Origin: Cyclobacteriaceae bacterium
GTDB taxonomy: Bacteria; Bacteroidota; Bacteroidia; Cytophagales; Cyclobacteriaceae
Reading direction: 5' to 3'
Assembly (NCBI GenBank): GCA_025363495.1
Contig: JANYDR010000253.1
Location: 1-34,747, forward strand
Length of the DNA stretch: 34,747 bases
In this document: positions 16,805 through 20,151 of the stretch, piece after piece
How positions within the stretch are numbered: the stretch's first letter is position 1
How the letters are laid out: every line of letters starts with the position of its first letter
The notes under the pieces: model-generated
What the model was told of the DNA's origin: nothing
Seen by the model: only the letters and a program-made list of their open reading frames with translations
Databases searched by the model: none
Position numbers and translations under genes: made by a program

Positions 16805-17788
16805 TTATTTGACTTCATTTAATTTTTTACTGATCGAATGGACAACCTGATCAAGTTCTTCAGCAGAGTTCCGCAAACTTCCATGGATTATCTTTTTCTC
16901 TTCAGGATCATCAGTAATGGAGAATAAATTAATAAGTCCTTTGATCCGGCTTACCGGTGACCTCAATAAATGGGCATTGATGAAAGCATAATCGGAAAGG
17001 ACGGCATTCCGTTCGGTGAGTTCATGGGTCCGCTCTTCTACGCGTTTTTCCAGGGCCTCATTTAGTTCCCGGACTTGTCCGTTTAAATAAGTCAGCTTCT
17101 CATTGGCAGTACTCAACTCTTCATTTTGGAGTTGCAGTTGTTTACGTTGGAGAGTAATTACTTCTTTTTGTTGTCGCATTGCCAGGTAGAAATCCCAGTT
17201 GGTCTTTAATACATATGCCATTAATAAATTGAGAATTAACCAGAGTGACACAAAAATAATCCTGATGTTACTGATTGAGCGGATAAACGGTGGTCCTGGG
17301 GTAGGTGAGCGATCAAATGCCATCAGGAAGTCAACGGAAAACATAACCATAATAACGGATAGCAAAAGAAGTGAAAACAAAACATAACGGTCCTTTGGAC
17401 GCGAGAAGAGGAGGTGAATTATCGGAGAGGAAAGTATGAGGTAAAAGGGGTGAAAAAAATAAGATGTTGGTGAAGGCCCTCTTGTTATGGTCGGAAGCAC
17501 AGACACTACAAAGGTCCAGCAGAGAATAAACAGAATTCGAGAGATCAGGAAAAGTTGAAACCGGTTAAGACTGAGACAAACTATTGCAAGTCCTACTAAA
17601 AAGAAAGGTGAAAGGGTCTGGATAGTAGCATTCCGGAAAACAGAAAAGACGCCGCCCATAATAATTTCAGCCAGCATCAATACAGATCCAGCTATGAAGT
17701 AAACCCCGTTAGAAAACACTACCAGTTTCTGATCTTCAAGATCCATTCGTTCTGTAGTGCCTATTTTCCAAATGCTGTCAAGTCTCAT
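16805..17788 (-). CDS. Six-TM sensor protein ending in a histidine-kinase dimerisation domain, no ATPase domain
   Basis: A 327-residue membrane protein. About six transmembrane helices fill residues 25-200 (for example [20 protein letters not shown] and [18 protein letters not shown]). A coiled coil of about 60 residues follows ([20 protein letters not shown]... to [16 protein letters not shown]). The C-terminus holds an H-box, [19 protein letters not shown], with H273 in the phospho-acceptor position, and a second helix ending at [10 protein letters not shown]. The N, G1 and G2 boxes of the HATPase domain are absent, and mutS begins 32 bp later, so no kinase domain is hidden downstream. It may act as a phospho-transfer partner or a dimerisation sensor. 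It is divergent from the LytTR gene, which suggests a shared signalling role. Confidence 0.8.
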
Positions 17789-17855: not shown

Positions 17856-17886
17856 TTCTCACCCCAAAACCACACATTTCACCCCC
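17856..17886 (+). promoter_or_regulatory. Pair of TCACCCC direct repeats upstream of the LytTR gene
   Basis: TTCTCACCCCA (17856-17866) and ATTTCACCCCC (17876-17886) are direct repeats whose ACCCC cores start exactly 20 bp apart. They lie in the divergent intergenic region between the kinase-like gene and the LytTR gene. They could be LytTR binding sites, because this domain usually binds two direct repeats about two helical turns apart. The assignment is inference. Confidence 0.45.
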
Positions 17887-17958
17887 TCAATGCCTTCCTG
17901 AGACCCGGGCGCATGAGATTTTTTGCAACTCTTGGATGAATTTTTCAGTTTGCAACGC

Positions 17959-18060
17959 ATGGAACAACCACATACAATGCGATTCGATGGAATCTCATCG
18001 TTTTTCAGAAGGATAGGCGAGAGTGTATCAGCTTCATTGAAGGCTCCTTTCCCATTTTAG
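17959..18060 (+). pseudogene. 5' part of the LytTR gene, cut off by an in-frame TAG
   Basis: ATG at 17959 opens 33 codons (MEQPHTMRFDGISSFFRRIG ... LKAPFPF) and stops at TAG 18058-18060. The next codons, in the same frame with no indel, read LNDNRKNFVLVFVISV and go straight into the first membrane helix of the LytTR protein. In Bacteroidota membrane LytTR proteins a PFPF-type motif directly before the first TM helix is usual. The 33 codons are therefore best read as the true N-terminus, separated by a single nonsense codon (CAG or TAC/TAT to TAG would do). Confidence 0.6.
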
Positions 18061-18084
18061 CTCAATGATAATCGCAAGAATTTC

Positions 18085-18909
18085 GTGCTGGTCTTTGTGA
18101 TCAGCGTATTAGTAACAGGATTCCTCTATTTGTTTAAACTTGAATCGGATATTCATTTTGCCGAAGGGTTAGAGTGGCTGCATGGGTCGATCACGTTTGT
18201 CTGCCTGACATTTAATATCATTTTATTACCCAGAATTTTTCCAGCGGCCATGGATCCAGTTTCGTGGACATATAAAAAATATATTCTACTAAATTTTGCC
18301 CATTTGGGCCTCATCTGGGCTGCGTGTACTCTTATAGAGAAGCCTTTATTCTGCCCTGACTTGTCGTGGTTTATGGTAGCCTCTCATGTTGGTTCACAGG
18401 TAGCGTTGAAAGGAATTATTCCAATAGCGTTTACCACTTTATTTTTGAAGGCCCATCTGCTTCAACAAAATCTTCAGGAGGCAATTATTACTAACCAGGA
18501 ACTTCAGAAAATACAGGTATTGAAAAAAGATGCTCCAAAAGCAGATAATCAGATTACTCTTTACTCTGATACAAGCGAAAGCTTATCTTTTAACCTTCCA
18601 GATCTTCTTTTTGTGGAGGCGGATGACAATTATTCAACTGTAATATGGAAGGAATCGGATGGGGTGAAGAAAAAATTATTACGGGTGAATCTGAAAAATG
18701 TGGAATCACAACTCAACAACTCATTCGCACTTCGTTGTCACCGGTCTTATATTGTCAATGTCAACGCCATCAGCGCGATTAGTGGAAATACCAACGGTTA
18801 TAAATTGAGAATAAACGGAACGGACTTTTCCATCCCGGTATCCCGGCCAAAGGGAAAAGAAGTAATGGAAAAGATCAGTCAGTTGCGCAACATGATGGAA
18901 TTAAGCTGA
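18085..18909 (+). CDS. Membrane-anchored LytTR-type DNA-binding regulator
   Basis: Four hydrophobic helices in the N-terminal half (LVFVISVLVTGFLYLF, TFVCLTFNIILL, YILLNFAHLGLIWAACTLI, and ALKGIIPIAFTTLFL) lead through a short coiled coil to a C-terminal LytTR domain (about residues 175-270). The domain is marked by LLFVEADDNYSTVIW, FALRCHRSYIVNVNAISAI and IPVSRPKGKEV. LytTR domains bind direct-repeat DNA and usually activate transcription. The ORF-track start is GTG at 18085, but the homologous N-terminus probably begins at 17959, beyond an in-frame TAG. The protein made today may be a version restarted at this GTG, or nothing at all. Repeats that could be its operators flank the gene on both sides. 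Confidence 0.8.
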   Translation: MLVFVISVLVTGFLYLFKLESDIHFAEGLEWLHGSITFVCLTFNIILLPRIFPAAMDPVSWTYKKYILLNFAHLGLIWAACTLIEKPLFCPDLSWFMVASHVGSQVALKGIIPIAFTTLFLKAHLLQQNLQEAIITNQELQKIQVLKKDAPKADNQITLYSDTSESLSFNLPDLLFVEADDNYSTVIWKESDGVKKKLLRVNLKNVESQLNNSFALRCHRSYIVNVNAISAISGNTNGYKLRINGTDFSIPVSRPKGKEVMEKISQLRNMMELS

Positions 18910-18910
18910 C

Positions 18911-18980
18911 CATTCGCCCCAGGAGAGATCTCTTCGCCCCATTCTTTACAGGTTGCATCAAAAATCTTGTCTCTCGCCCC
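18911..18980 (+). promoter_or_regulatory. Three TCGCCCC direct repeats on a 20-bp phase
   Basis: CATTCGCCCC (18911-18920), TCTTCGCCCC (18931-18940) and CTCTCGCCCC (18971-18980) share TCGCCCC at distances of exactly 20 and 40 bp, that is, two and four helical turns. They start right after the LytTR stop and end about 70 bp before the next gene. A poor -7-like ACTCTTTG at 18998-19005 would place the last copy near position -35 to -40, as for a class II activator site. Confidence 0.55.
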
Positions 18981-19051
18981 AAAGGTGTGTTGTTCGTACT
19001 CTTTGGGAATGCGCACCGACGTTCTTAGATCTAAAATTAAAAACACTACTT

Positions 19052-19453
19052 ATGAAAACTGCATTTACTTTATCCCTCTTTTTTGTAGCCGTTGCCACAA
19101 TGGCCCAAACGAGTTCTGAATTACCACGTAATGAATTTGTAATCAATCTTTCTGAAAACAGCTTATCCCTGAAACCGGGTGAGGGTAAACAAGTGATGGT
19201 TTCAATTTTACGATCCAAGTCTTATTCAAAGGCAGAGGCGGTTCTTGGCTTCTCAAATAAACTACCGGAAGGAATTACCATACAATACGAGCCGGCAAAA
19301 GGAATTTTTGAAACGAGTGTTGCAACGATCAATGCAAGTCCTGAGACAGCGTTAGGAACATATCAGATAATATTTAATGGCACACTAAATTTTAAGACCA
19401 AGGGATCGATTCTTAAAATTTCAGTAGGCAATGAGAGTGTAGCGTCGAAGTGA
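19052..19453 (+). CDS. Small secreted protein, beta-sandwich-like
   Basis: A 133-residue protein with a clear signal peptide (MKTAFTLSLFFVAVATMAQ). The track ORF starts 33 codons earlier (MHQKSC), but that stretch covers the repeat region and does not look coding, so ATG 19052 is preferred. The mature part (EFVINLSENSLSLKPGEGKQ, then ... LGTYQIIFNGTLNFKTKG) has the alternating pattern of an Ig-like or NEW3-like beta sandwich. No enzyme motif is visible. It is probably exported to the periplasm or surface. The phased TCGCCCC repeats just upstream suggest control by the neighbouring LytTR protein. It ends at a long terminator hairpin. Confidence 0.75.
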   Translation: MKTAFTLSLFFVAVATMAQTSSELPRNEFVINLSENSLSLKPGEGKQVMVSILRSKSYSKAEAVLGFSNKLPEGITIQYEPAKGIFETSVATINASPETALGTYQIIFNGTLNFKTKGSILKISVGNESVASK

Positions 19454-19461
19454 TTTTAAAG

Positions 19462-19493
19462 GATTGAGAAGTTGAGCGTCCAACTTCTCAATC
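19462..19493. terminator. Bidirectional terminator between convergent genes
   Basis: The perfect 13-bp stem GATTGAGAAGTTG / CAACTTCTCAATC has a 6-base loop. TTTATAT follows on the plus strand, and CTTTAAAAT follows on the minus strand. It fills the 41-bp gap between the secreted protein and the methyltransferase-like gene. Confidence 0.8.
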
Positions 19494-19494
19494 T

Positions 19495-20151
19495 TTATAT
19501 CTTCTTAACGGCCACAATCAGCCACATTTCATCTCCTTTTTCTGCTTTGCGATCAACGAAGCGGTCTTGTTTTTTGATGATAGTAAAACCTGCTTTCTTT
19601 AAATCTTCAAGAGCGAAATTAATTCCTAATTCATGTTTACTTTCCTGCTCTTTCCGTGTCAGAGTTCTTCTTTCTTCAGCGACAGGTTCACAAAGAACAA
19701 GGCGACCACCTGCTTTTAAGGATGATTTGATTTGCTCCAGAATTTTATCGTGTTCATTCATCTCATGATAAGTATCAAGAATAAATACTGCATCAAGAGA
19801 GTTTAACGGAAGCCTTGGATTATCATAATCTCCTTTAATAGTTATTACATTTTTTATTGAACGTTTTTCCAGAATAGCCTGAAGGCGATCAAGCTTTGTC
19901 TGCTCAACATCTACCGCGTACACCTTTCCAGTGCTTCCCACTGCAGGGGATAGTTTTACGGTAAGATAGCCCTCATGAGAGCCGACGTCAGCAACGAGAG
20001 TTCCTTGTTTTTGAATTCCGTATTTGATTATTTCATCGGCCTTTTGCCATCGGTCCCGATCTGCCCAGGCACTTTCGGTATAGACATTTTTCCACTGGTC
20101 CTGAAATAACGGGATCCAGCAAATCAAAAGAAGAAGGACATTAGTATTCAT
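19495..20151 (-). CDS. Class I SAM-dependent methyltransferase-like protein with an export signal
   Basis: 218 residues. The N-terminus MNTNVLLLLICWIPLFQ is hydrophobic like a short signal peptide or membrane anchor. After it comes a Rossmann methyltransferase core: motif I VADVGSHEGYLTVKLS, acidic strand-2 end VYAVDVEQTKLDRL, GDYDNPRLPLNSLDAVFILD (motif IV region), and a post-I segment with GGRLVLCEPV. Motif I is GSHEGY rather than the usual GxGxG. Exported methyltransferase-like proteins of this type occur in Bacteroidota, but SAM is not expected outside the cytoplasm. The protein may be membrane-tethered inside, or have another role. The substrate is unknown. Confidence 0.7.
   Translation of the reverse strand: MNTNVLLLLICWIPLFQDQWKNVYTESAWADRDRWQKADEIIKYGIQKQGTLVADVGSHEGYLTVKLSPAVGSTGKVYAVDVEQTKLDRLQAILEKRSIKNVITIKGDYDNPRLPLNSLDAVFILDTYHEMNEHDKILEQIKSSLKAGGRLVLCEPVAEERRTLTRKEQESKHELGINFALEDLKKAGFTIIKKQDRFVDRKAEKGDEMWLIVAVKKI

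Follow-up and report, generated by a model that had tools for sequence, protein, structure and literature searches.

Analysis of the window, a 34,747-nucleotide stretch of DNA (contig JANYDR010000253.1) from an uncultured member of the Cytophagales whose relatives are labelled Cyclobacteriaceae or Flammeovirgaceae, revealed phased direct repeats on both sides of a gene encoding a LytTR-domain regulator. We consider it very probable that these repeats are LytTR operators, through which a membrane-anchored, one-component LytTR protein regulates its own gene and controls the neighboring gene for an exported immunoglobulin (Ig)-like protein, most likely by activation.

The initial annotation had described TCGCCCC repeats at 20- and 40-bp spacing between these two genes, and the copies lie at exactly 18914, 18934 and 18974 (extended copies: TTCGCCCCA for the first and second, CTCGCCCCA for the third). 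Positions and spacing were thus correct, but the array comprises four half-sites rather than three, D1 to D4, with an exact 20-bp period in the window that includes a degenerate half-site in phase at 18953, and a second, upstream operator, a 20-bp pair (17858/17878) 5' of the LytTR gene itself, had been missed. The half-site consensus is TTCRCC(C/A)CA, and since the period of 20–21 bp corresponds to two helical turns, all four half-sites would face the same side of the DNA. The copy number of TCGCCCC alone is unremarkable (three copies in 34.7 kb compared to 2.3 expected); the signal is their clustering and phase. The features of the locus are listed in Table 1.

Table 1. Operators, promoter elements and genes of the LytTR locus (positions in the window).
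Feature	Coordinates	Strand	Sequence	Description
Half-site U1, upstream operator	17858–17865	+	CTCACCCC	Conserved in orthologs, 1.6 bits/column
Half-site U2, upstream operator	17878–17885	+	TTCACCCC	20 bp from U1
−33-type box, LytTR promoter	17919–17929	+	TTTTTTGCAAC	TTG at 17923; 1.67 bits/column in 16 orthologs
−7 box, LytTR promoter	17945–17952	+	TCAGTTTG	19 bp after TTG; 1.73 bits/column
LytTR regulator frame	17959–18909	+		From ancestral ATG; N-terminal transmembrane helices and C-terminal LytTR domain
Half-site D1, downstream array	18913–18920	+	TTCGCCCC	
Half-site D2, downstream array	18933–18940	+	TTCGCCCC	+20
Half-site D3, downstream array	18953–18960	+	TTGCATCA	+40; degenerate, in phase; TTyACATCAAA in relatives, 1.42 bits/column
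Half-site D4, downstream array	18973–18980	+	CTCGCCCC	+60
Probable −7 region, target promoter	19018–19025	+	GACGTTCT	45 bp after D4 start; putative promoter role
Target gene	19052–19453	+		133-amino-acid exported single-domain Ig-like protein; co-occurs with LytTR
Terminator-like hairpin	19459–19496	+		3' of target gene

Conservation in relatives provided the first line of support for these operators. A fixed half-site, TTCRCCCC, was scored at 18 loci, the window and 17 same-genus orthologs of the LytTR regulator (46–85% identical), with dinucleotide shuffles as controls. All 18 loci had an upstream pair that reached 14/16 or more at 20–21 bp, and 10 of the 18 had a downstream pair at the same cut-off, compared to 0.02–0.03 of 18 in shuffles for either pair; the pair scores peaked at 20–21 bp and at no other spacing. 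Because the consensus was first seen in the same 18 loci, the pair counts are descriptive, and stronger tests are provided by the peak in spacing and by the held-out sets described below. The downstream array is retained in most of the orthologs. Half-sites carried 1.3–1.6 bits per column versus 0.4–0.6 for spacers, and operators were retained beside orthologs of about 50% identity, including those of Chryseolinea, Pseudochryseolinea and their relatives. In Dawidia and Parachryseolinea, the downstream gene is a different one and encodes a CarboxypepD_reg domain, also known from TonB-dependent receptors. The initial annotation had made its reading depend on a phase kept in related genomes, and the 20–21-bp spacing is indeed kept there. 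Chance or a decaying minisatellite, which the near-expected number of three heptamers in 35 kb might suggest, can be practically dismissed, given that the phase is conserved in many species while the spacers have diverged.

Searches of the 4.55-Mb genome (an incomplete assembly of 688 contigs, 87.6% complete) showed that the motif is restricted to this locus. The pattern TCRCCCCN{3,33}TCRCCCC matched in four places, three of which flank the LytTR gene (17859, 20 bp; 18914, 20 bp; 18934–18974, 40 bp), while the fourth (C652:2022, 20 bp), inside the coding sequence of a transglutaminase-like gene, is probably due to chance. A reversed control pattern gave three matches, indicating that the place and spacing of the pairs, not their number, are unusual. 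An operator profile, built from 31 operators by sequence only and searched in 59 genomes, matched the own genome at E≤1 only in the two places that flank the LytTR gene, and its best matches in relatives were again at the ortholog locus. Pattern and profile agree with the reading of the initial annotation, which had proposed a test for enrichment of such pairs next to LytTR genes, the coding-sequence pair on C652 being the one match elsewhere. A plain search for TTCACCMC pairs in 292 genomes of the order was swamped by background and useless without LytTR context. The repeats might instead be bound by a different regulator encoded elsewhere, either another LytTR protein or a member of another family, and the genome does hold 12 LytTR domains. 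Such a regulator is nevertheless very unlikely, since the motif occurs at this locus only, its presence tracks this LytTR protein and its target, and similar arrays adjoin remote membrane LytTR genes.

Comparison of gene order among relatives suggested that the downstream array serves the exported-protein gene. In genome G044, two genes separate the LytTR gene from the exported gene, and the array stays with the latter rather than behind LytTR, with half-sites at −139/−119/−99/−78 of the target compared to −139/−119/−99/−79 in the window. The target was found in 16 of 18 regulator-bearing genomes but in only 2 of 41 others (Fisher 2e-10, phylogeny ignored). No array was present in two genomes without an ortholog of this LytTR, one with a distant target homolog (G046) and one with a broken target copy (G024). 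Conserved phase, restriction to the locus and regulator–target co-occurrence all favor the idea, put forward in the initial annotation, of a LytTR operator array for the exported-protein gene. Alternatively, the repeats might work at the RNA level, as an attenuator, a leader element or a 3' end, in keeping with their place after a stop codon and ahead of the next gene. This is highly improbable given that they fold no better than shuffles (z 0.54), that no Rfam family scored above threshold, that the same motif precedes the LytTR promoter and that in G044 the array accompanies the target gene and not the LytTR 3' end; a terminator scan likewise offered no RNA explanation for the repeats. The target protein matched no Pfam family and was modeled as a β-sandwich with a single Ig-like/PapD-like fold (pLDDT 85.5); a role in the cell envelope is a guess. 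Between the target gene and a convergent methyltransferase gene, the terminator-like hairpin is strong, with 16 pairs.

The regulator sequence contains three to four hydrophobic helices followed by the C-terminal LytTR domain (PF04397, 1.7e-16), which was the only Pfam domain found; an MHYT domain was not among the matches. In the structural model there are four helices, the last of which extends as a long linker, and the LytTR fold matches 3d6w, ComE and AgrA–DNA structures, with a TM-score of 0.78–0.80 of the target for the LytTR part against the AgrA–DNA structures 4xqj, 4xqn and 3bs1. In the frame from the ATG at 17959, an in-frame TAG occurs at 18058–18060, where relatives read PFYLND; the open part past it spans 18061–18909, with a GTG start at 18085. 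An in-frame TAG is also present in one ortholog (L029, G037:C60), where it separates the membrane part from the LytTR domain; the operators are retained there. The divergent gene at 16805–17788 (− strand) encodes a membrane protein whose C-terminal stretch resembles a histidine kinase and which matched no Pfam family.

The position of the half-sites relative to the promoters bears on whether the regulator activates or represses. At the LytTR promoter, the half-sites are found 5' of the conserved boxes, and the −7 box is TAAGTTTG in most relatives versus TCAGTTTG in the window (Bacteroidota −7 consensus TAnnTTTG; PMC9723704). At the target, the promoter position is a putative one, marked by a −7 region that reads nnCGTTTT in relatives, with CGT invariant in the 13 aligned relatives; Bacteroidota promoters fall outside the coverage of the E. 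coli-type promoter scan. In relatives, the proximal half-site starts about 46 bp 5' of the LytTR −7 box and 45 bp 5' of the target nnCGTTTT, and its center would probably be near −54 at both promoters. The last copy had been placed near −35/−40, which probably needs correction, as D4 starts about 45 bp 5' of the probable −7 box.

We favor activation with positive feedback because a half-site center near −54 resembles the position used by LytTR activators, upstream of −35. In geometry, the arrays match known LytTR operators, which consist of 9-bp repeats 10–13 bp apart, and most LytTR activators bind 5' of the −35 box (PMC11347149); AgrA binds as a dimer to two direct repeats with the proximal repeat near −60 (PMC4227749). 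Alternatively, the protein could bind the same operators but repress both genes until released by a signal, as does CoxC, a membrane-fused LytTR repressor with three repeats at 18–21 bp (PMC11347149). CoxC, however, represses from sites overlapping the −35 box (PMC11347149), whereas here the half-sites are 5' of the probable −33 box, a typical activator position, and we regard repression as rather unlikely.

We propose that the activating circuit would work as follows. About four helices would form the N-terminal membrane domain of the regulator, with a long linker helix leading to the C-terminal LytTR domain, and an envelope or membrane signal would alter the membrane domain. LytTR subunits would then occupy half-site pairs cooperatively upstream of weak Bacteroidota promoters, the four half-sites D1–D4 forming a DNA operator recognized by the LytTR protein encoded directly upstream, and the same protein would recognize the two-half-site operator 5' of its own promoter. 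Activation of both genes would create a positive-feedback circuit whose sole evident target, besides the regulator itself, would be the neighboring exported Ig-like protein. Binding, dimers, activation and the membrane signal are all steps that we infer; what can be read in the genomes is the array itself, its phase and conservation, its restriction to one locus genome-wide, its staying with the target gene, and the co-occurrence of regulator and target. Several points weigh against the circuit. The counts are not independent, the same-genus genomes being related, and the own-genome LytTR paralog on C85 lacks such an array. With its TAG at 18058, the LytTR frame may be a damaged copy, may restart at GTG 18085, or may contain a misread or assembly error. 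Upstream operator and −33 box stand about 21 bp farther apart in the window (17885–17919) than in aligned relatives, which might weaken activation; the extra 21 bp make two helical turns, so phase is kept. Finally, CoxC, itself a membrane LytTR, is a repressor.

Comparison with known LytTR systems revealed both shared and distinct features. Like LytTR operators elsewhere, the locus combines a PF04397 regulator matching the AgrA and ComE folds with same-strand repeats at 20–21 bp. The AgrA/ComE-type systems of Firmicutes share with it the LytTR domain, direct repeats spaced by about two turns and, probably, a proximal repeat 5' of the −35 box, but the regulator here is membrane-fused, without a receiver domain, and the target carries four half-sites of the TTCRCC(C/A)CA type. 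The claim that the motif differs from Firmicutes LytTR sites holds only in part, since many half-sites here read TTCACCAC, with an ACC(A/C)C core found also in published LytTR-system repeats such as ACCACTTAT and in the LytTR Regulatory Systems (LRS; HdrRM/BrsRM) of S. mutans (PMC6193735). Direct repeats at the own promoter, an LRS trait, are present and conserved (17858/17878), with a putative autoregulatory function. In contrast, the LRS pairs a soluble regulator with a separate membrane inhibitor, whereas here a single polypeptide carries the transmembrane helices, its gene being preceded by the divergent gene and followed by that of the exported Ig-like protein. The Bacteroides "LRS-like" proteins do have transmembrane segments before the LytTR domain, and their repeats, start-to-start 22 bp, lie 5' of TGTA-19-TATCTTTG promoters (PMC6193735), a layout very close to TTG-19-TAAGTTTG here; they differ in their half-site, TCCGGTATTCA, in having an NfeD/DUF2154 membrane gene as partner and in having no described downstream-target array. 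No NfeD/DUF2154 match was found among neighboring window proteins. CoxC (MHYT-LytTR) also fuses a membrane sensor to LytTR, with several direct repeats at 18–21 bp, but it has an MHYT domain and its sites overlap −35 and repress.

Analysis of remote membrane LytTR proteins gathered from other families and classes (n=41) suggested that the arrangement is widespread in Bacteroidota. A TTCRYCCC pair (19–22 bp, at least 13/16) occurred directly 3' of 29 of the 41 genes, compared to about one in shuffles and none of 18 control LytTR genes. A repeat test free of any motif peaked at 20 bp (13/41 at 8/9 identity versus 0–5 at other spacings). About eleven of the 41 loci had suggested the TTCRYCCC consensus; in two held-out sets, the motif-free test again peaked at 20 bp (9/26 and 6/16; other spacings 0–3), and the motif pair was found in 17/26 and 4/16 (shuffles 0.5 and 0.1) but in 0/18 held-out controls, nearly all soluble LytTR proteins. 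Flavobacterial half-sites often read TTCATCAC or TTGGTCAC. The downstream gene was codirectional at 27 of 28 loci with an array versus 8 of 13 without (p 0.008), and the downstream genes in the remote family are unrelated to one another, among them genes for Acyl_transf_3, DUF2306, Erythro_esteras, cytochrome c and amidohydrolase proteins. Upstream pairs were rare, so autoregulation via this motif seems specific to the clade of the window. It seems fairly likely that Bacteroidota membrane LytTRs represent a large family of local switches complete in themselves, each consisting of a regulator, a TTCRYC(C/A)CA array with a 20-bp period and an exchangeable, often envelope-related target; candidate targets are exported Ig-like, TonB-receptor-like, acyltransferase 3, DUF2306 membrane, erythromycin-esterase-like and cytochrome c proteins. 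The LytTR residue after NYx may be a specificity residue that co-varies with half-site spelling, as Thr accompanied C, and Glu or Lys accompanied T, at half-site position 4 (table 26/3/1/15); this is a lead only, because a single independent contrast is supported once the tree is taken into account.

Direct-repeat operators of LytTR proteins, and autoregulation through them, have been described before, and Bacteroides membrane-LytTR repeats with another half-site are listed in the LRS paper (PMC6193735). These LRS-like repeats were the only described Bacteroidota motif in the open-access literature searched, which yielded no description of the present consensus, the double operator or the regulator–array–target arrangement. 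For a family of Bacteroidota membrane-bound regulators lacking described targets in that literature, the results offer a specific candidate operator that makes predictions down to single bases. Since target and site adjoin the regulator, the genome sequence could directly reveal the target genes of many such regulators. A two-gene reporter would make it possible to test how a membrane-tethered LytTR protein reaches its DNA, and the adjoining site may matter mechanically, as a membrane-bound factor may best reach DNA near its production site. In addition, three CACCACA-like repeats 19–20 bp apart (L109, 3343–3400) follow the gene for a Flavobacteriales LytTR-domain protein, in which the LytTR domain ends a very long reading frame.
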